This document shows, piece by piece, positions 12,905-39,470 of a DNA stretch of 39,470 nt. Location of the stretch: the IMG/VR virus record IMGVR_UViG_3300009605_000004, positions 1-39,470 of that record. The stretch is one strand, 5' to 3'. A program made the translations under genes and the position numbers. This DNA is from a virus. Position 1 is the first letter of the stretch, and every line of letters starts with the position of its first letter. Below the pieces are notes generated by a model. That model worked only from the letters and a program-made list of their open reading frames with translations, made no database searches and was not told the DNA's origin.

Positions 12905-13447
12905 CTATATACAAAAACCCTGTAATTTCTTACTTGCTAAAAATACAACGTCTCCGGGTTTTGCGTTAGTGTACTCTTCTAAATAGTTAACGTTACTATA
13001 AACCTCTTTCAATTTCTTGTGCCACCATTGTACAGGTTTAATAAGTCTGTGTGCATTTGTTCCATCTGACATAACGTGTTGTGCTTTTCTAGTAGATATA
13101 ACAAATAGTACGTGTCTGTTCATAAAAAAATGTATGTCATCTAAAACGTTATCAATGTATAACGGCTCTACATGTTCGAGGACATCGATGCAGAATACGA
13201 CGTCGTAGACTCCTCTCGGACGTTTGCTATGTACGGGATTGCATGGGTCGTATCTGAAAGTTTTCTCGCAAAATGTTCGAAGATTGCCCTTTCCGCACCC
13301 GTAATCCAGCGCAGTTTTGGCATGTGCACCAGCCGCTTTGATGGCCGTTTCGTAGCGCTCTCCAGTCCCACATCCCCAATTAGAATCATTTTTATGTTTC
13401 TCCTCGTTTAGCTGCTTGTAATCGTCGCTTAATCTCGTAGGGGTCAT
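12905..13447 (-). CDS. SAM-dependent methyltransferase (class I)
   Basis: This 180-aa protein has a glycine-rich SAM-binding motif TALDYGCGKGNL (about 46-56), and YDVVFCIDVLEHVEP (about 81-95) with the acidic motif II and the DVLEH signature of small phage methyltransferases. The target (DNA, protein or small molecule) cannot be told. I place the start at the ATG at 13447, with GGAA about six bases upstream. An in-frame upstream start at 13489 would lengthen the overlap with the ParB-like gene. That gene overlaps it by 56 bases, so the pair is probably co-translated and may work together. Confidence 0.82.
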   Translation of the reverse strand: MTPTRLSDDYKQLNEEKHKNDSNWGCGTGERYETAIKAAGAHAKTALDYGCGKGNLRTFCEKTFRYDPCNPVHSKRPRGVYDVVFCIDVLEHVEPLYIDNVLDDIHFFMNRHVLFVISTRKAQHVMSDGTNAHRLIKPVQWWHKKLKEVYSNVNYLEEYTNAKPGDVVFLASKKLQGFCI

Positions 13448-13889
13448 AAGTATTCCGTTCGTTGTAAAAACTAAAAAAGTCTGGTTCAAATATTAATTCT
13501 GTTGGTTCATCAGTAAACTTCTGTAAAGCGTGTTCTCTAGATGTAACTAACTCTAAATTTTGCCAGTCTTTGCTCCAGTCAACTATAAATGTTGGTACAT
13601 CTATATCCAGCTTGTGTGCTAGCCAAACTCTAGTCGTACCATATACTGCATACGTATTGTTATTGAAGCACCAACAAAGTGCTGGATTTCTAAACCCGTT
13701 TGATAGAACGTCTGATTCAAACTTGTCATAATAGGGCTTATCTACTCTGTATCTACTTTGTATGGGATGTAACGGTCTGTACTCATTGCGTTTGGGAACA
13801 TAAACATTTTTAGATAGTGTTTTCCCGTTTATTACACCATAACGTACCTCTGGTATAGTACTGTATCTTTGAGTTCCATGAAATCCCAT
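13392..13889 (-). CDS. ParB-like nuclease-domain protein
   Basis: In 165 aa the middle section reads like a ParB/sulfiredoxin-fold N-domain: DKFESDVLSNGFRNPALC, then NNTYAVYGTTRVWLAHKLDIDVPTFIV. The usual GxxR turn appears as YGTTRVWLA, with the first G retained. In phages such domains often accompany methyltransferases, as here, and are proposed to act in DNA modification or processing. A 15-bp palindrome sits eight bases before the ATG, and a terminator for the upstream gene lies beyond it. This gene may therefore start its own regulated message. Confidence 0.7.
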   Translation of the reverse strand: MGFHGTQRYSTIPEVRYGVINGKTLSKNVYVPKRNEYRPLHPIQSRYRVDKPYYDKFESDVLSNGFRNPALCWCFNNNTYAVYGTTRVWLAHKLDIDVPTFIVDWSKDWQNLELVTSREHALQKFTDEPTELIFEPDFFSFYNERNTYDPYEIKRRLQAAKRGET

Positions 13890-26861: not shown

Positions 26862-28733
26862 ATGGAACAATCCAAATGGATGCCACTAGATTATTACGCA
26901 CACCTTGAAGCATGTACCAAAGCAGCCAGGGCAATAACAGGAAATCCCAAGATGCAAGTAGTTTTGGATGAACACACAAAGCAGCCTCGAACGGATGGCA
27001 CTGTTATAGAGCATTACAAACCGCATTACGGTATGTCACAAGATGAATGGGTCAAATGGTACGGTATTTTGTATCACGAGATAGGACACTCTGACCCTAG
27101 TTGTCTGGAGGATTTCACTGTTCTGAAAGAGAAACACATAGAATATGGATCGTTTGAAGGGAAAGTGCTCAACATAATATCTGACTATTGCCAAGAGAAA
27201 AACAAGTTTGATTCATATGTAGGAAGGAAACGATTTCTAGGTGGATTGCGTGCCAACATGTATAAAGAAGCCGCATCAGCAAAAACATTCGGAGCATCCA
27301 GAAATAAATACCCGTGTCCACTAGCAGAGAAATTACAATCTTGTCTGGAAACAATGTTCGTGTGGGATTTAGAAAGACGTGAGCATTGGATGAAAAGCTG
27401 TATGGGGTATTGCGAACCATTAAAAAATAATCTGAACGAGCAGTCTACGCAATGGTTGTACAAGATGTTGACAGGCGATTACGGAGAAGTACTTGATACT
27501 AAGTGTGATGTAGACACACACGGAAGTAGTGCGGCTATAGAGAAGTACATACTAGCGCAGAGAATAATGGATGAGGTATTCGAGTTATCTGAAGATGAAA
27601 AGAAAACTTTGTGTGAGCAATCATCATCAATATCTACACCTTTCTCAGAGCATGACGCATCGTCAACAGAATCAAGTAGTAGTAGCGAGCAAGGAACTAC
27701 CGAAAAGGCTGAAGATCAAGAGAGTACGTCTGATAAGCAAGCTATAAAGTATAAAGTTGAGATAGATTATGATTCTGTAATGATGCATTCACACGATGAT
27801 AGTGATTATAAAATAAATCGTGGTTATGGTGAAATGACTATTAATTATGACGCGTCAAAAACTTACGGTACGTACTATCCTTACGCTCTTAGTGAAATAG
27901 CAGAGATAGATTTCTGGAGTAACACCTTACGCGGCGTTAAAAATGACATTAATCACAAGAAAGTACTAACCGGTAGCATGCAAGGATCACACTACAAGTA
28001 CGTATTTGATACAACGTCTGGAAGCAAGTTGTCTAAAAAGTTACAAAGATTATTTAAGATACACGCTAAGTCTATATATATATACGGACAGAAGAAAGGA
28101 AAGTTACACGCAAAAAACTTGTACCGTACCGCATTGAATATACAAGGATACAGTGATCGCATATTTAAGAAGCGTATAGCGAGTAACATACAAGATACTG
28201 CGGTGTGTGTACTGCTAGACTGTTCGGGATCTATGAGCGGAGAGAAGTTCGAGCACGGTGGTACGGCACTGTTGCTACTAAGCGAGTTACTGCAATCTAT
28301 ACAAATACAACATGAACTGTTGGGGTTTACAGACTGGGATCACTGTATTCACTACGTGTTCAAACCTTTTGGAGTAAAAGCGGACATAAAGAAAACACGT
28401 AAGTATTTACAACGCGCTAGTACAGGTATGAGTATGAACGCAGATGGAGATAGCATTTTATGGGCAATCAACAGATTAAAATCTCGCCCAGAACTGTTAA
28501 AAATTATGATTGTGTTATCGGACGGACAACCAGCAGGAGGAAAAGGTGGAGATATAGATAAATTTACCCGAGACGTAGTAAAAGATGTAGAACGCGATAG
28601 ATCTGTAGATATATATGGAATAGGTATTATGGACAGAAACGTGCACAGGATTTACAAACAGTGCAGAAGTATCCTACAATCTTCAGAGTTGGAAGACGCG
28701 TTACTAGACGTTATTCAAAGTAAAATTCTATAA
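26862..28733 (+). CDS. CobT-like VWA protein with HEIGH motif
   Basis: At 623 aa this is close to bacterial cobaltochelatase CobT (about 630 aa). An N-terminal helical domain has YGILYHEIGHSD (H72, E73, H76), a zinc-protease-like signature, followed about 30 residues later by LNIISDYCQEKN. A Ser/Glu-rich acidic linker lies at about 255-300. The C-terminal VWA domain has a complete metal site DCSGS (D453, S455, S457) and later VLSDGQP (D554). With the AAA+ gene next to it, it forms a CobS/CobT or MoxR/VWA-type pair, which uses ATP to remodel or load metal into a target. The start at 26862 is chosen over an upstream ATG inside the previous gene. The last codon and stop come from operator site 6. 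Confidence 0.8.
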   Translation: MEQSKWMPLDYYAHLEACTKAARAITGNPKMQVVLDEHTKQPRTDGTVIEHYKPHYGMSQDEWVKWYGILYHEIGHSDPSCLEDFTVLKEKHIEYGSFEGKVLNIISDYCQEKNKFDSYVGRKRFLGGLRANMYKEAASAKTFGASRNKYPCPLAEKLQSCLETMFVWDLERREHWMKSCMGYCEPLKNNLNEQSTQWLYKMLTGDYGEVLDTKCDVDTHGSSAAIEKYILAQRIMDEVFELSEDEKKTLCEQSSSISTPFSEHDASSTESSSSSEQGTTEKAEDQESTSDKQAIKYKVEIDYDSVMMHSHDDSDYKINRGYGEMTINYDASKTYGTYYPYALSEIAEIDFWSNTLRGVKNDINHKKVLTGSMQGSHYKYVFDTTSGSKLSKKLQRLFKIHAKSIYIYGQKKGKLHAKNLYRTALNIQGYSDRIFKKRIASNIQDTAVCVLLDCSGSMSGEKFEHGGTALLLLSELLQSIQIQHELLGFTDWDHCIHYVFKPFGVKADIKKTRKYLQRASTGMSMNADGDSILWAINRLKSRPELLKIMIVLSDGQPAGGKGGDIDKFTRDVVKDVERDRSVDIYGIGIMDRNVHRIYKQCRSILQSSELEDALLDVIQSKIL

Positions 28734-28742
28734 CTGTTATAG
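28728..28742. promoter_or_regulatory. 15-bp palindrome over the CobT-like stop (site 6)
   Basis: An exact CTATAACTGTTATAG copy. Its first six bases are the final Leu codon and the TAA stop of the CobT-like gene; the CobS-like ribosome-binding site follows six bases later. Confidence 0.82.
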
Positions 28743-28757
28743 CTACAGGAGATTAAA

Positions 28758-29846
28758 GTGTCGTCAGATAAAACGTTTAACCCTATAGAACATGACATCA
28801 TGTCTGAAGTGACTGGTATAAAGAGACAGTTAGATGACGTGACAGATGTTAACGAGCACTTACAATCCGTTTCTAAAGAAATAGTAGGAGACAGCTACCA
28901 GTCTGTTGTTACCCACAAGCCTCCAAAAGGATTACCAAATATACCTGTACAGGTCTTTGCGGCAAACGATTGGTCAGAGAACATTCGACAATTTATTCCC
29001 CGTATGAATCCACTGTATAAACCTGACCCTATGGCACTATACTCATTGTTAGTTGGATGGCATTTAAATGAGCCAGTATTGATATACGGACCTACAGGAA
29101 GTGGTAAAACTTCTCTTGTAGAATACGCATCGGCTATAGTTAATCGACCTTACATACGAATTAATGGTCGCGGAGACATGGAAAGCGGTCCTATATTTGG
29201 ACAACCGTCTGTAGAGATAGACGAAGAAACAAAGCTGAATGTTTACAAGTGGAATGACGGTATAGTTACTGAAGGTGCAAAGGAAGGTGCGGTACTCAAC
29301 TTTGATGAACCGTTTGCTACACCACCAGAGATACAGATAGGTATGAACTCTTTGCTGGAGGATGATGGAGTATTAATACTGTCTGACAAAGCCGGAAAAT
29401 TTAAAGACAAGATCGTTAAACCAGATCCACGGTTTAGGATAGTGTACTCAGATAATACGGGAGGATTAGGAGATCAATCAGGATCGTTTGCAGGGGTGCA
29501 CGTACAGAACACCTCGACATTGGATCGATTTCAAACTATAATATTTCTAGACTATATGAAAAGACGACAGGAGGTTGACATGTTAAAAAGTAGATTTACA
29601 ACACTTAATTCAGATTTGATTAGGATGCTAGTGGATTTTGCAAACTTGGTAAGAGAAAACTATATAAATGGGGATATCAGTTTAACTATGTCTCCAAGAA
29701 CCCTCATGTCTTGGAGTGAAAAGGCCATGTTATTTAAGGATATCAAACGGTCTCTTGACGTATGCTTCAGGTGTAAATTTAAAGACGAAGGAGAACTAGG
29801 AACTCTGGACAACCATTACAGAACGGTGTTCGGGGATAATTGGTAA
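28758..29846 (+). CDS. CobS-like / MoxR-type AAA+ ATPase
   Basis: This 362-aa protein starts at GTG with AGGAG six bases upstream. Walker A is GPTGSGKTS (111-119) and Walker B is VLNFDE (179-184), followed by PPEIQIGMNSLLEDDGVL, typical of the MoxR/CobS clade. Sensor-type SDNTGGLGDQSG follows, then LDRFQTIIFLDY. Bacterial CobS is about 330 aa. The partner gene with a VWA domain is directly upstream. Cobalt insertion into the corrin ring also needs CobN, which the phage lacks, so the pair might boost or redirect the host enzyme. Alternatively it acts on another metal protein or on assembly of a complex. Confidence 0.82.
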   Translation: MSSDKTFNPIEHDIMSEVTGIKRQLDDVTDVNEHLQSVSKEIVGDSYQSVVTHKPPKGLPNIPVQVFAANDWSENIRQFIPRMNPLYKPDPMALYSLLVGWHLNEPVLIYGPTGSGKTSLVEYASAIVNRPYIRINGRGDMESGPIFGQPSVEIDEETKLNVYKWNDGIVTEGAKEGAVLNFDEPFATPPEIQIGMNSLLEDDGVLILSDKAGKFKDKIVKPDPRFRIVYSDNTGGLGDQSGSFAGVHVQNTSTLDRFQTIIFLDYMKRRQEVDMLKSRFTTLNSDLIRMLVDFANLVRENYINGDISLTMSPRTLMSWSEKAMLFKDIKRSLDVCFRCKFKDEGELGTLDNHYRTVFGDNW

Positions 29847-29852
29847 CATACA

Positions 29853-30041
29853 ATGAGATGCAAGGCTTGCGACAATGCCATGCAACCAGAAGAAGTTTGG
29901 TGGCATCCTGACAGAGAGCAATGGGAAGACTTATGCTATCCGTGCAGGTTGATAGTGATAGAATCAATGTATGATTTTCATGATGAAGGGTATGGTTACA
30001 AACCAGTAGTAGAATCATTGGCCGATGAAAGGGAGCTATAG
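29853..30041 (+). CDS. Small zinc-ribbon protein
   Basis: This 62-aa protein has two CxxC pairs: MRCKACDNAMQPEEVWWHPD, then LCYPCRLIVIES. The spacing of about 20 residues fits a zinc ribbon. The tail is acidic and helical. The stop overlaps the GTG of the primase gene. Position before the primase suggests a replication or transcription accessory role, unproven. Confidence 0.7.
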   Translation: MRCKACDNAMQPEEVWWHPDREQWEDLCYPCRLIVIESMYDFHDEGYGYKPVVESLADEREL

Positions 30042-30898
30042 TGAGAGACACTACGAGACTTAGATACGACGAGTTTGTTCCTTTTGCACCTAGCGAAGAG
30101 AACAAAACAGTAAACATATACCATTGTAAAAAAGGTAATAGAAACGACAAGCTGTATATTACACGTAAACCCCACGGTGTTATCCTTGCTCACTGCTTTC
30201 ATTGCGATAGTGGTGGTAAGTATGTTGATAAAGGCAGTAGACACAATGGAAAAAAACGCACAACGCACGTTAAACGAAATCAATCTGCCATTAAGCGTTT
30301 GCCAAAAGGTGGATACACGCAACTATCGAAGTGGTCACCAGAAGCGCGTGCGTGGATAGATAAAGCTCACATAGGAAAAGCACTCATTCAACAGTACGGA
30401 TTAACTTTTTATCCACAAGATGATTGCGTATTGTTACCCGTGTATTCTGGATCTATTTTATGTAGAGTTATCAGGCGATCTTTTGGTGATACTCCATATC
30501 CAAAGTATTACACAGTGATGCACGATAATTTTCATAATGGACATGCGTACGTTATAAAATGTAGATCTGGAGAAAATAATACTGTTGTATTCGTTGAAGA
30601 CTTCCTCAGCGCTATACGCTGTGCTCAATGGGCAGATTCTGTACCGTTGTTTGGGACAAAACTTCACGATAACGTGTTTGTTCCTGTTATAAACAGAAAG
30701 CCACACTATACTAAACGCATAGTGTTTCTAGATAATGACAACATCAATGTTTTAAAGGCGCAATGTAAGGTTCAAAGGAGGTTAGACACAGTGTTTGATA
30801 GTAGAGGAACTGTGGTATACAGGACGAATAAAGATCCCAAAAACCACAGTGAAACAGAATTAAAGGATATTATAATTGGAGCTAACTATGATACGTAA
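30041..30898 (+). CDS. DNA primase (T7 gp4 primase-like)
   Basis: This 285-aa protein has an N-terminal zinc-binding part with YHCKKG and later HCFHCDSGG (about 52-60). A TOPRIM domain follows, with VVFVEDFLSAIRCAQ carrying the catalytic glutamate and RIVFLDNDN carrying the DxD. It makes RNA primers for lagging-strand synthesis. In T7 primase and helicase are fused in gp4; here the helicase is a separate gene after one small gene. GTG start overlapping the previous TAG. Confidence 0.85.
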   Translation: MRDTTRLRYDEFVPFAPSEENKTVNIYHCKKGNRNDKLYITRKPHGVILAHCFHCDSGGKYVDKGSRHNGKKRTTHVKRNQSAIKRLPKGGYTQLSKWSPEARAWIDKAHIGKALIQQYGLTFYPQDDCVLLPVYSGSILCRVIRRSFGDTPYPKYYTVMHDNFHNGHAYVIKCRSGENNTVVFVEDFLSAIRCAQWADSVPLFGTKLHDNVFVPVINRKPHYTKRIVFLDNDNINVLKAQCKVQRRLDTVFDSRGTVVYRTNKDPKNHSETELKDIIIGANYDT

Positions 30899-31187
30899 AC
30901 CGAGACGTAAACCCGGTGACATGTTTATTGGAAAAAACGGAGCTATTTTCTTATGTGTTACACGTATGCAAGGGTTTTACATTGTAAGAGTACAAGATGT
31001 AGATAACGGTGGTAAAGAGATGGTCGCAGATATATCGGCAATCCTACGCCGCGACGAGTATTTAGATACAGATTTATGTCAGGACTTGGCTTATATAGGA
31101 AACATAGGTAACATATTAGAGCACACTGCTGAAAAGCAGCGTCCGCACTACGAGGAGCTTCGTGAAAAATCTAATCAAGATTCTTAA
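30888..31187 (+). CDS. Unknown 99-aa protein between primase and helicase
   Basis: The protein begins MIRKPRRKPGDMFIGKNGAI, with GGAG about six bases upstream inside the primase end; an earlier in-frame start at 30876 is less likely. The N-terminal part is basic and beta-like (FLCVTRMQGFYIVRVQDVDN), the rest helical and acidic. It overlaps both neighbours, so it is translated with the primase and helicase and may help them. No domain recognised. Confidence 0.65.
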   Translation: MIRKPRRKPGDMFIGKNGAIFLCVTRMQGFYIVRVQDVDNGGKEMVADISAILRRDEYLDTDLCQDLAYIGNIGNILEHTAEKQRPHYEELREKSNQDS

Positions 31188-32451
31188 TAATCGCAAGCTA
31201 ATAAACATGCGGCAGCGCCTTGTGCACGATGTGTTTCTTAGCGACGAGACTGAAAAAGTTCTTCACTCGATGGAAGAATACATGGAAGTCTATAACACTG
31301 TTATAGACGATTGGGATACCTTCTTTTTATGGTTTACAACTGTTAAATATCCGGGGTTATCAGGTGCAAAAGTTAAGATATACAAAGCTCTTTTTGAAGC
31401 TGTTCGTGATAGTGATGATCCTGTATCTACTGGACACGATAGTTCAATAGCAAAAGACATCGTTGGATCTATACTTAAAAAGACTTACGCTGAAGCGATG
31501 GCGTCTAAGTTATTCGATGTAGCTCACGGATCTGATGATACAGATATAAATGAAGCTATTGAAGACAGTCTTTCAGAGTATTCAGAACTACGTGAATCTT
31601 ACGGTCTGTTAATAGACGCAGACGAAGAACGGGACGAAGATAACAACGTCATGTCTGTATTAGATGATGACACAAGTAAACAATCTAGTGGGTTCAACTG
31701 GTGTCTAAAAGAGTTAGACATGACTTTTGGAAAACTTTGTGCGGGAGATTTATATTTTATCGGCGGAAGACCTGACAGTGGTAAGACATCGTTGTTGTGC
31801 CATCAAGTAGCACACACACTGAAACAAATAGGTGACGGTAGGTCCATAGTGTGGATGACTAACGAAGAGCGAGCATCCAAGGTAAAACTACGATTGTTAT
31901 CAAGCATTTCTAAAATGTCAGCTACAGATATAATGTCAGACGTAGACGATTTTAAATCTAAACACTCACACATACTTCCTGAAAAGGACGCGTTGATAGT
32001 TAAGAACATATACGATTGGAACACTAAAAGTGTATCATCTTTACTTAATAAGATTAACCCTGCTCTTATAATATTTGATCAATTGTCTAAGATCAGCATA
32101 ACTCAATCCTGTGCTAACGACGCTGAACGTTTGTCAAAGTTAGCGTCTTTCGCACGATCTCTGAGTCAGAATTATCCTGTCTTGTCTACAATATGGGCTG
32201 ATGGTAGTGCAGAAGGAGCACAGTACATTCAACAAGGACAATTGTATGGATCTAAAACTGGGATACAAGGGGAAGCGGATGCAATATTAACCGTAGGAAG
32301 ATTACACAATGATTCTATACCTAATGCCAGATATCTTTACGCTCCAAAGAACAAGTTGTCTGGAGGAGATCCAAGTTGTAGAAATGCTAAATGGGAAGTG
32401 GTCATACATCCAGAGATAGGGAGATATAGCAGTGTCAACACCCCATTATGA
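31162..32451 (+). CDS. Replicative DNA helicase (DnaB / gp4 helicase-like)
   Basis: This 429-aa protein has an N-terminal helical region, then a RecA-type core: Walker A GRPDSGKT (202-209), Walker B ALIIFD (301-306) and a later GSKTGIQGEADAILTVGR. It unwinds DNA ahead of the polymerase. A GTG start with GAGGAG five bases upstream is used. A three-base-spacer variant of the operator palindrome lies inside its 5' part. Confidence 0.88.
   Translation: MKNLIKILNNRKLINMRQRLVHDVFLSDETEKVLHSMEEYMEVYNTVIDDWDTFFLWFTTVKYPGLSGAKVKIYKALFEAVRDSDDPVSTGHDSSIAKDIVGSILKKTYAEAMASKLFDVAHGSDDTDINEAIEDSLSEYSELRESYGLLIDADEERDEDNNVMSVLDDDTSKQSSGFNWCLKELDMTFGKLCAGDLYFIGGRPDSGKTSLLCHQVAHTLKQIGDGRSIVWMTNEERASKVKLRLLSSISKMSATDIMSDVDDFKSKHSHILPEKDALIVKNIYDWNTKSVSSLLNKINPALIIFDQLSKISITQSCANDAERLSKLASFARSLSQNYPVLSTIWADGSAEGAQYIQQGQLYGSKTGIQGEADAILTVGRLHNDSIPNARYLYAPKNKLSGGDPSCRNAKWEVVIHPEIGRYSSVNTPL
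31290..31306. promoter_or_regulatory. Operator palindrome, three-base spacer variant, inside helicase gene
   Basis: CTATAAC and GTTATAG are separated by ACT; the dyad extends outward by two bases (GT and AC). It is the only near-copy in the middle of a gene, so it may be chance or a weak site. Confidence 0.4.
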
Positions 32452-33649
32452 GTATGTAGTGTTAGATTTGGAAACAACGGTGAACAGTTCTAGAGATTTC
32501 AACGCTGCTCCGTTCGATCCTGTGAACGCTATAGTTGTGGCCGGATTGTTAACACCACAAGAGGAGGTATTAATTTATGATTTCCAAAGTACAGATGATA
32601 CTAACAAGAAAAACTTTTTTGATGCTATACATAATACAGATCTGATTATAGGTCAGAACGTAGGTTTTGATTTACACTATATTCGTAAGTATATGCCATT
32701 TATAAATAGTTGGTACGAATGGATTAATACTATAGCTATATGGGACACACAAATAGCAGAGTATCTGTTAAGTGGACACAAACACAAGTTTGAATCTTTA
32801 GATTCTCTTAGTGAGAAGTATGGCGGTAACTTGAAAAATGACGCAATAAAAACGTACTGGGATTCAGGAATAAAAACGGAAGACATACCAATGTCCGAAC
32901 TGTGCGAATACTTAAAGTGGGATCTGATAAACACGTACACGGTTTTTAAAGGACAGTACAAAAAAGTTTTAGATGTAAATGACAAGCAATTTACAAAAGT
33001 CTTGGCTGTTCAAATGGAGCACAGACTTGTAACGCTGGAGATGGAATACAACGGTATGTTTTTTAATCAGGCATTATGCAGCAACTACTTGGAAGAACTA
33101 CAAAATGAAATAGATGAACTTACTAAAAGTATTTCAAACGATATGGATAAGCACTTAGGGTATTATGTAGTAAGTAACCCTTTATCAAATAAACAAGTAG
33201 CTACTATTTTATACGGTGGCTATTTACAGTACGACGATACAGAACCTGTTATGAATGAATACGGAGAGATAGCTACGTACAAAACGGGATTAAGAGCGGG
33301 ACAATTTAAAGAGAAAAAAGTTAAGCGTAAAGAGTGGATAGATGGTGTATTAAGCGCACGACAACAACGTGAATTAGAAGACAAGAACACCAGTAACAGC
33401 ACATTAAAGGCTATTTGCGAGATGAGGCTGTATCGAGAACACAACGCGTACGTAACGCAGTTTTGCGAATCTATACTTGCACTAAGGAAATTAAATAAAG
33501 ATGCCAGTACATACTTCGAGGGTTACTCTAAAGAGTGTTGGGAGCACGATTCGTGTTTGCATCCAACGTATAACCACGCATCTACAAGTACAGGTAGAAT
33601 CTCTTGTACTAAACCTAATGTAATGAATATTACTAGGAAAGAAACATGA
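32432..33649 (+). CDS. DNA polymerase A, N-terminal half (3'-5' exonuclease and thumb)
   Basis: This 405-aa protein starts at GTG. The proofreading exonuclease is of DEDDy type: DLETT (D12, E14), NVGFD (D80) and YLKWD (Y160, D164). The thumb and finger start follow, ending with STGRISCTKPNVMNITRKET, the TGR...PN motif just before polymerase motif A. A TGA then stops this gene at a four-base overlap with the second half. No catalytic polymerase residues are included. It must pair with the following product to give an active enzyme, unless ribosomes shift frame. Confidence 0.88.
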   Translation: MSTPHYEYVVLDLETTVNSSRDFNAAPFDPVNAIVVAGLLTPQEEVLIYDFQSTDDTNKKNFFDAIHNTDLIIGQNVGFDLHYIRKYMPFINSWYEWINTIAIWDTQIAEYLLSGHKHKFESLDSLSEKYGGNLKNDAIKTYWDSGIKTEDIPMSELCEYLKWDLINTYTVFKGQYKKVLDVNDKQFTKVLAVQMEHRLVTLEMEYNGMFFNQALCSNYLEELQNEIDELTKSISNDMDKHLGYYVVSNPLSNKQVATILYGGYLQYDDTEPVMNEYGEIATYKTGLRAGQFKEKKVKRKEWIDGVLSARQQRELEDKNTSNSTLKAICEMRLYREHNAYVTQFCESILALRKLNKDASTYFEGYSKECWEHDSCLHPTYNHASTSTGRISCTKPNVMNITRKET

Positions 33650-34539
33650 GCAAAATAAAAGAATGTTTTCAGTCGAGATTTTCTAATGGGGTGTTGATGC
33701 AAGTAGACTTCTCTCAATTAGAAGTGTGCTGTCTTGCGGTTATAGCTAAAGACACTGTACTTTTAGATGAGTTGAACAAAGGGGAAGATATTCACACAAA
33801 CAACACGTTGATGTTGCACCCAAGTATCAACCCTGAAGAGTTTAAAAAGCTAAGACGTAGAACGAAAGAGTTTACGTTTCAACTACAATACGGAGCAGGT
33901 GCTAGATCTATATCCAGATCTTTAGGTATAAGTTACAGGGAAGCATCGAGATACAAAGAAGAATTCTATAAGAAATATACCGGTATAAGAGATTGGCACG
34001 CTACATTGCCTTATGAGGCAAGGGATAACGAGTTCATGGGTCAAGACAGAACACCATTGGGGTATCCTGCACGCGAGGCTTATCTTAGATCTATAACAGG
34101 TAGGTACTATAAGCACATACAACGAGATGGCCCCAGTTGGGATGCCAGTACTCCAGGGTTCTCTCCAACCGAGTTGCGTAATTACAGGGTACAAGGTTTA
34201 GCAGGAGGAGATATACAACCGTTAGCTAATTGCATGTTGTATAGAAAACTTATAAAAGATAAACTATACTTTACAATAAAGCTGATAAACACAGTGCACG
34301 ACAGTGTAATATTGGATATTAAACGTCGAAGTGTTATGGATTGTTTTCGTCTGATAAAGAGTACGTATAAAGACATAAAGGGACACGTTGAACGCGTATA
34401 TGGGATGCGCTTTACAGCTCCCCTAAATTATGATGTGGAGATTGGTTATGACCTTCAAAACTTGACCGAAGTAGACATCGATGATGTTATATACTCCTAC
34501 GATCAGGAGGATTTAACAGAATTACTAGCAACTCTATAA
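33646..34539 (+). CDS. DNA polymerase A, C-terminal half (palm and fingers)
   Basis: This 297-aa protein carries the remaining family A motifs. Motif A is QVDFSQLEV (D21). Motif B has the R-x3-K-x3-F-x3-YG pattern (R70, K74, F78, Y82; F78 matches Phe762 of E. coli Pol I). Motif C is NTVHDSVIL (D219), with Ser where most members have Glu. Its own AGGA ribosome-binding site lies seven bases before the ATG. Joined end to end, the two halves cover a full polymerase with nothing missing. No intron, intein or homing endonuclease lies between them. Confidence 0.88.
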   Translation: MSKIKECFQSRFSNGVLMQVDFSQLEVCCLAVIAKDTVLLDELNKGEDIHTNNTLMLHPSINPEEFKKLRRRTKEFTFQLQYGAGARSISRSLGISYREASRYKEEFYKKYTGIRDWHATLPYEARDNEFMGQDRTPLGYPAREAYLRSITGRYYKHIQRDGPSWDASTPGFSPTELRNYRVQGLAGGDIQPLANCMLYRKLIKDKLYFTIKLINTVHDSVILDIKRRSVMDCFRLIKSTYKDIKGHVERVYGMRFTAPLNYDVEIGYDLQNLTEVDIDDVIYSYDQEDLTELLATL

Positions 34540-38086: not shown

Positions 38087-39470
38087 ATGTCGAAATACAT
38101 GGATGACTATCAGACTTTTATACACAAGTCTCGATACGCTAGATGGCTAGATACAGCGCAACGCAGGGAAAACTGGGATGAAACCGTTGAACGATATGTA
38201 TCATTTTTTCGTGACTTGGGAGAACAACGCGGATGGAAACTAGAGAATACTTTATACAATACGATAACATCTTCGATGCTATCTCTGGAGGTTATGCCCT
38301 CAATGCGAGCACTGATGACCGCTGGACCAGCCCTTGCCCGAGATCATACAGCGGCTTACAACTGTGCCTATCTAGCGATGGACAAGGTGTTCAAGTTTTC
38401 GGAACTAATGCACTGTCTACTGTGCGGGACGGGTGTTGGTTACTCAGTGGAGTCGAAGTTCGTAAACGCTCTTCCAGAAGTATCGGAAGAGATGTTTGAA
38501 ACGGATACTATTCTACATGTCGCAGATTCTAAAGACGGTTGGTGTAGAAGTTTTAAGGAATTGCTCGGGTTGTTATATAATGGGCAAGTACCAAAATGGG
38601 ATCTCAGTCAGATTCGGCCCGCAGGCGCTAGACTTAAAACGTTTGGAGGGCGTGCCTCCGGGCCAGAACCGCTGGGTGAACTATTCCAATTTTGTGTCAA
38701 GCTGTTTAAGGCAGCTTGCGGAAGACGATTGCACTCAATAGAAGTACACGATTTATGCTGTAAGATTGCAGATGTTGTTGTGGTTGGAGGAGTTCGTAGA
38801 AGCGCACTGATTAGTTTAAGTGACTTGGATGATTCCAAAATGAGGGACGCTAAAAAGGGCGAGTGGTGGAGAGAAGACAAACAGCCGTACAGGGCGTACG
38901 CCAACAACAGTGTTGCGTACTCAGAGAAACCTGATGAAAGTACTTTCTTAAAAGAGTGGTTGTCTTTGATGGAATCTAAGAACGGAGAACGAGGAATATT
39001 TAGTAGGCAAGCTGCTAAGAAACACTTGGAACGTAACACATCTAGGAACGTAGAACACGAGTTCGGAACAAACCCTTGCTCCGAGATACTTCTACGTGAC
39101 AGACAGTTCTGTAATCTCAGTGAAGTAGTTATTAGAGCAGATGATTTCTTTGACGATGTAAAAGAGAAAGTTAAAGTGGCTACAACGATTGGTACAATGC
39201 AGTCCGCTCTGACAGACTTTCATTTTTTGTCCAAGGTTTGGACGTCTAATTGTGAGGAGGAGCGGCTACTAGGTGTGTCGTTAACCGGTATAATGGACCA
39301 TGAAGTATTCAGTGGTCAGATAGAATCGTGCCCCGGACAACTTTCGCAATGGTTGCGAGAACTGCAAAAGGTTGCTGTTGAGACTAACAGAGAGGTAGCT
39401 GAAGCTATTGGAATACATGCGTCTACGGCGATTACTTGTGTAAAGCCCAGTGGAACGGTGTCGCAGCTTG
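38087..39470 (+). CDS. nrdJ: Adenosylcobalamin-dependent ribonucleotide reductase, 5' part (joins 1-662)
   Basis: The frame from ATG 38087 runs off the right edge and continues at base 1, giving 640 aa. AGGAGGG (38071-38077) precedes the start. Class II residues are all present: C93 in AYNCAYL (first of the redox pair), C331 in TNPCSEI (thiyl radical cysteine) with E333, C342 in FCNLSE (second of the pair), and the tail cysteines near 632 and 637. It converts ribonucleoside triphosphates to deoxy forms using adenosylcobalamin, independent of oxygen. The Lactobacillus enzyme is about 740 aa, so this is a compact form. No second subunit gene is present. Confidence 0.93.
   Translation, partial: MSKYMDDYQTFIHKSRYARWLDTAQRRENWDETVERYVSFFRDLGEQRGWKLENTLYNTITSSMLSLEVMPSMRALMTAGPALARDHTAAYNCAYLAMDKVFKFSELMHCLLCGTGVGYSVESKFVNALPEVSEEMFETDTILHVADSKDGWCRSFKELLGLLYNGQVPKWDLSQIRPAGARLKTFGGRASGPEPLGELFQFCVKLFKAACGRRLHSIEVHDLCCKIADVVVVGGVRRSALISLSDLDDSKMRDAKKGEWWREDKQPYRAYANNSVAYSEKPDESTFLKEWLSLMESKNGERGIFSRQAAKKHLERNTSRNVEHEFGTNPCSEILLRDRQFCNLSEVVIRADDFFDDVKEKVKVATTIGTMQSALTDFHFLSKVWTSNCEEERLLGVSLTGIMDHEVFSGQIESCPGQLSQWLRELQKVAVETNREVAEAIGIHASTAITCVKPSGTVSQL
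39348..39470. repeat. Terminal redundancy, right copy
   Basis: These 123 bases repeat bases 1-123 exactly; see the left copy. They extend the reductase frame without interruption. Confidence 0.95.

Follow-up and report, generated by a model that had tools for sequence, protein, structure and literature searches.

What do adjacent genes resembling cobT and cobS do in a phage that also encodes a vitamin B12-dependent reductase? The question is raised by the virus record IMGVR_UViG_3300009605_000004, of which the whole 39,470-nt stretch (the window) was analysed, and in which a CobT-like and a CobS-like gene are co-directed neighbors separated by 24 bp. The original prediction was that the pair supports cobalt insertion into the host corrin through host CobN, so as to feed the phage reductase. 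We lean somewhat towards a different reading, in which the two proteins belong to a virus-specific branch of the CobS/CobT (MoxR/VWA) group that acts on proteins in early infection and DNA replication and is not a cobaltochelatase helper for the reductase. What is observed is the identity and order of the genes, their AAA+ motifs and metal ion-dependent adhesion site (MIDAS), conservation of an HExxH/D site, a position beside replication genes, and occurrence with each reductase class found, or with none.

Identity of the CobT-like and CobS-like genes

The CobT-like gene (26862..28733, on the + strand like the motifs, replication genes and reductase located below) encodes from an ATG a 623-aa protein with an N-domain, an acidic and serine-rich linker, and a C-terminal VWA domain; the automatic open reading frame (ORF) opens further upstream, at TTG 26781. 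The CobS-like gene (28758..29846) begins at a GTG preceded by AGGAG and encodes a 362-aa MoxR-type AAA+ ATPase. PHROG, NCBIfam and Pfam confirm the adjacent VWA and MoxR/CobS-type genes of the original prediction as CobT-like and CobS-like: the former matches Pfam CobT_C (1.3e-20), PHROG 17276 (5.9e-56) and TIGR01651 (7.5e-18), and the latter matches PHROG 249 (1.6e-49) and almost the full model length of TIGR01650 (1.8e-36). More than 80 viral loci were compared, and the order CobT then CobS is kept in 85 of 88 pairs. Scanning viral contigs with one protein recovered a single, near-identical contig, and defense-system models gave only weak P-loop matches.

As judged from its sequence, the pair, a MoxR-type AAA+ protein adjoining an N-domain/linker/VWA protein, belongs to the broad CobS/CobT superfamily. 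Membership among the functional equivalogs is a different matter, as the proteins score 64.5 bits against a cut-off of 759.05 for TIGR01651 and 126 bits against 558.55 for TIGR01650; by these scores and by the missing co-encoded CobN, the pair would fall outside them. The closest characterized system is the aerobic cobaltochelatase CobS-CobT (PDB 9ujv, 9uka; TIGR01650, TIGR01651, PF06213, PF11775), which has the same two-gene pair and domain order, shares the MIDAS and AAA+ motifs, and has a homologous N-domain. It differs in that the phage proteins score far under its cut-offs and branch apart, that HExxH/D is absent from the sampled cellular CobT proteins, and that CobN is absent from the surveyed phages.

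In a sequence search against the PDB the phage ATPase matches CobS (9ujv, 2.1e-37) more strongly than CbbQ (6e-12), with NorQ also weaker than CobS; modules of the giant AAA+ protein Midasin likewise score highly, and among small MoxR-type proteins CobS is its nearest relative at the sequence level. Its Walker A motif (GPTGSGKT, residues 111-118; 29088..29111) includes G111 and K117, and its Walker B region (VLNFDE, residues 179-184; 29292..29309) includes D183 and E184, all four invariant in 31 aligned phage proteins. The AlphaFold2 model of the ATPase has a predicted local distance difference test (pLDDT) of 88, and the closest folds among the matches listed are CbbQ and NorQ; for the VWA domain the nearest among those listed is the NorD VWA domain (9qh8). 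NorQ-NorD and CbbQ-CbbO also combine a MoxR AAA+ protein with a VWA partner and are the closest listed PDB folds, with sequence matches much weaker than that of CobS. The structural comparison, one of the two outcomes named in the original prediction as refuting it, thus speaks only formally against a chelatase kinship, whereas sequence favors CobS. We do not count the fold matches alone against CobS/CobT, since the solved chains 9ujv and 9uka are not among the listed Foldseek matches and possibly lie outside the library. Homology to CobS/CobT across the whole architecture is supported by the sequence matches to the solved proteins, an N-domain profile comparison and PF06213.

The family as such has been described before. 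Tailed viruses of archaea and bacteria encode phage CobST proteins of the same family (Liu et al. 2021, PMC8651126; PHROG 17276 and 249), and among named phages ICP2 has the protein that matches the CobT-like one best. Group 2.2 jumbo phages encode a MoxR ATPase together with a vWA protein that carries a metallopeptidase domain at its N-terminus (Iyer et al. 2021, PMC7824862), a likeness in MoxR plus metallopeptidase-vWA architecture that is judged from the published description. The jumbo-phage pair is assigned to virion assembly, whereas here it lies in the replication arm of a 39-kb phage.

A zincin-like site in the viral CobT-like proteins

The N-terminal domain (residues 1-250; 26862..27611) is a homologue of the CobT N-domain (PF06213) and carries a zincin-like site. 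In a profile-profile comparison, 41 phage N-domains and 26 from bacterial CobT matched with a probability of 95% (E 3e-8); PF06213 is matched by 21 of the 41 and phrog_459 ('peptidase') by nine. A profile built from seven CobT-like phage proteins matches the VWA part of solved CobT; its match to the N-domain is weak.

In a joint alignment of phage and cellular proteins the site appears as an HExxH motif, HEIGH in the window (residues 72-76; 27075..27089). H72 is present in 69 of 77 phage proteins, E73 in 73 and H76 in 69, whereas among the residues listed for 124 cellular CobT-family proteins the counts are none, none and one. The cellular set consists mainly of rhizobial and other proteobacterial CobT proteins with a few divergent CobT-like ones from the same phylum sample. 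Downstream lies the motif N104-xxx-D108-xxx-E112 (27171..27197), in which D108 is the likely third metal ligand; it is found in 71 of the 77 phage proteins and in none of the 124 cellular ones among the residues listed (113 have Q), and N104 in 71 and one, respectively. HExxH is in place in 48 of the 56 phage proteins left by dereplication; in shuffled sequence the figure is 1%. The zincin hallmark of HExxH plus a downstream acidic ligand, putatively D108, is therefore present at the level of motif. In zincins the Glu of HExxH does not bind the metal. That this non-ligand residue is conserved as strongly as the His residues argues for a predicted catalytic role.

The AlphaFold2 model of the CobT-like protein has a mean pLDDT of 79, with low confidence in the linker (~256-332), and places HExxH on a helix spanning 60-76 and D108 on another spanning 98-113, with local pLDDT of ~85-93. 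Retention of HExxH/D in most phage CobT-like proteins and its absence from the 124 cellular ones, the confident modeling of the helices carrying HExxH, and the 'peptidase' matches in relatives all favor a protein-remodeling role with a metallopeptidase-like N-domain. The MIDAS motif of the VWA domain (DxSxS, residues 453-457; 28218..28232) is common to both groups, with D453, S455 and S457 invariant in all 77 phage and 124 cellular proteins.

In a single joint tree built by a quick method, a long branch separates the phage proteins from bacterial CobT; one divergent cellular protein (L233) groups with the phage proteins on its own long branch, and its placement is unsure. Four other cellular CobT-like proteins (L228, L229, L231 and L232) have an adjoining CobS-like ATPase and no HExxH, and branch separately from both bacterial CobT and the phage proteins.

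Replication genes, reductases and hosts

At 72 of the 75 loci with enough flanking sequence, a primase, helicase, PolA or DnaE gene lies within 6 kb downstream of the pair on the same strand, and the linkage is seen with two non-homologous types of polymerase, PolA and DnaE. This association also favors a remodeler that acts on proteins of early infection or replication. The three exceptions are L005, L007 (P-SSM2) and L076; in P-SSM2 recombination and clamp genes are near the pair.

The reductase of the window, predicted earlier to be a class II, adenosylcobalamin-dependent enzyme, is indeed one by its family matches. Its first part (38087..39470) continues at 3-662, and TIGR02505 (adenosylcobalamin-dependent RTPR) matches both, at 3.7e-67 (227 bits) and 1.4e-28 (99.5 bits). 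Both parts are under the 340-bit curated cut-off, like nearly all uncut phage relatives, and RTPR is the best family match along the gene. An exact 123-bp direct repeat at the window ends (1-123 and 39348-39470) makes the record look like a complete circular assembly opened inside the reductase gene, which is ~8.2 kb from the pair.

Reductases were surveyed in 50 other pair-bearing records, comprising 43 viral contigs and seven named phages, with short contigs omitted; the contigs were sampled through CobT similarity, so that the counts are not an unbiased rate of association. Class II enzymes were found in 24 (among them G001, which is almost identical to the window), class I in 17, and no reductase was detected in nine. 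The class I total includes 16 records with a small subunit and G023 with a class I alpha subunit; G023 had been considered as class II, no NrdB having been found, and this was dropped as its alpha subunit is closest to class I by score and the contig ends there. The reductase genes of G020 (L100) and G023 (L096) contain apparent inteins, matching intein-containing families, with TIGR01445 found in L096. Some of the nine records without a reductase are fragments, and two, ICP2 and CRP-810, are complete. Among the seven named phages only T5S1 has a class II enzyme, and on the CobT tree the class label changes at least six times.

The association was also approached from the side of the reductase. 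A search of cultured phages gave 1,185 records for the window reductase and 43 for the CobT-like protein, with none of the best 60 of the 1,185 among the 43. Whole-record searches of six of those 60, including the cobavirus ICBM2, with a 43-row alignment (A3) gave no match, nor did a search of the 48-kb contig G346 with the same alignment. The nearest cultured reductase, at 58% identity, is that of ct2os315 (MW202796; L257), which has a similar replication arm and no CobT-like gene.

CobN (PF02514) was found neither in the window nor in any of the 50 pair-bearing records; the same family is detected in four of four rhizobial genomes with bacterial CobT. In ICP2, a phage of Vibrio cholerae, the pair occurs in the same order ahead of primase, helicase and PolA, and a reductase is neither annotated nor detected. 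In PhiR41_1, whose recorded host is E. coli K-12 MG1655, the pair precedes DnaE, and a reductase alpha subunit is encoded. An E. coli control genome gave no CobN match, and de novo cobamide synthesis is described as impossible for E. coli (PMC12013260). V. cholerae was not used as a CobN-less test host, as the literature consulted does not say that it lacks CobN. Retention of the pair while reductase class varies, the missing CobN, the occurrence in ICP2 and PhiR41_1, and the class II phages that are nearest by reductase and lack the pair all argue for a role outside B12 metabolism.

Within the window itself the pair heads the replication arm, and structural genes are on the opposite strand. 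The downstream block (30041..34539), identified by PHROGs and in the same order in relatives, comprises a primase (30041-30898), a DnaB-like helicase (31162-32451) and PolA in two ORFs (32432-33649 and 33646-34539). The family A polymerase is likewise split into two overlapping ORFs in the relatives L009, L011, L012, L014 and L022, among others, and is a single ORF in other relatives. Two ORFs between the capsid and tail genes (12905-13889) look, on inspection by eye, like a methyltransferase and a ParB-like protein.

Possible roles of the pair

In the remodeling mechanism that we modestly favor, CobS-like subunits would form an AAA+ ring onto which the CobT-like subunit docks, and the VWA MIDAS site would engage a substrate, presumably a host or replication protein. 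The N-terminal zincin-like domain, with HExxH and D108, would cleave this substrate, or at least bind metal and grip it, as ATP hydrolysis drives the remodeling. That the two proteins assemble, bind metal, act by proteolysis and are expressed early is inferred here. Several points count against this proposal. HExxH is not intact in eight of the 56 dereplicated phage proteins (L004 from nickie, L057, L060, L062, L072, L075, L083, which is possibly truncated, and L086), so cleavage cannot be universal. No zincin is among the listed fold matches, a VWA-dominated top 50 obtained with the full-length model as query, and the zincin fold and third ligand are inferred from motif and secondary structure. 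Protease activity, metal and substrate are all predicted, proximity to replication genes may reflect a mere early operon, and in hosts with CobN and without CobST the pair could serve CobN.

That last role is the one that Liu et al. 2021 (PMC8651126) put forward in general terms, in which viral CobST hijacks host CobN to form a cobaltochelatase, here raising adenosylcobalamin for the class II reductase. Homology to CobS and CobT over the whole architecture, the class II enzyme in the same genome and in 24 of the 41 surveyed records in which a reductase was detected, and the reported commonness of CobN without CobST in prokaryotes (PMC8651126) speak for it. We nevertheless consider it unlikely, as pair-bearing records with a class I enzyme or no detected reductase (26/50) are about as numerous as those with class II (24/50), which is essentially the other outcome named in the original prediction as refuting it. 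Nor does it fit T5S1 as the sole class II case among the named phages, the 60 closest cultured reductases with no counterpart in the CobT-bearing list and the six negative whole-record searches, the pair in a phage of E. coli K-12, the absence of CobN from surveyed phages, or scores far under the equivalog cut-offs. The reductase and host data thus do not support CobN hijacking as a general role.

The general MoxR/VWA role offered as an alternative in the original prediction fares better, in that remodeling is favored here, with a metallopeptidase-like N-domain added that had gone unmentioned. A purely non-proteolytic form, a remodeler or metal-loading chaperone in which HExxH is structural or binds metal for delivery, would agree with the nearest listed folds (NorQ/CbbQ and NorD, from remodeling or metal-insertion systems) and with loss of HExxH in several phage relatives. 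We doubt it, because cellular CobT functions without HExxH, so that remodeling or metal loading alone would not maintain the motif, and because its non-ligand Glu is conserved like the ligands. Folding or trimming of structural proteins during virion assembly or maturation also seems improbable. The identical domain architecture in group 2.2 jumbo phages was so assigned (PMC7824862), Acidianus two-tailed virus reportedly needs a MoxR-vWA pair to assemble its tails (cited in PMC7824862), and a weak fold match was obtained to its ORF892; however, the pair stands upstream of replication genes at nearly all loci, and on the strand opposite the structural genes in the window.

The family, CobN hijacking (PMC8651126) and the jumbo-phage metallopeptidase fusion (PMC7824862) are already published, and no transcriptome literature on cyanophage cobS was found. 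Relative to the open-access literature, the present analysis adds three things: the difference in conserved residues between phage and cellular CobT proteins, the tests by reductase class and host, and the linkage to replication genes. Virus studies routinely count phage cobS/cobT as B12 or nucleotide auxiliary genes (PMC8651126, PMC13390420, PMC11705849, PMC7029224). We put forward only tentatively the broader idea that these auxiliary metabolic genes may instead encode a widespread AAA+/VWA-coupled metalloprotease of early host takeover or the viral replisome. If this reading of the conserved site and the gene order is right, cobS/cobT annotations would indicate the wrong process, and a common viral protein-remodeling machine would have gone largely unstudied.
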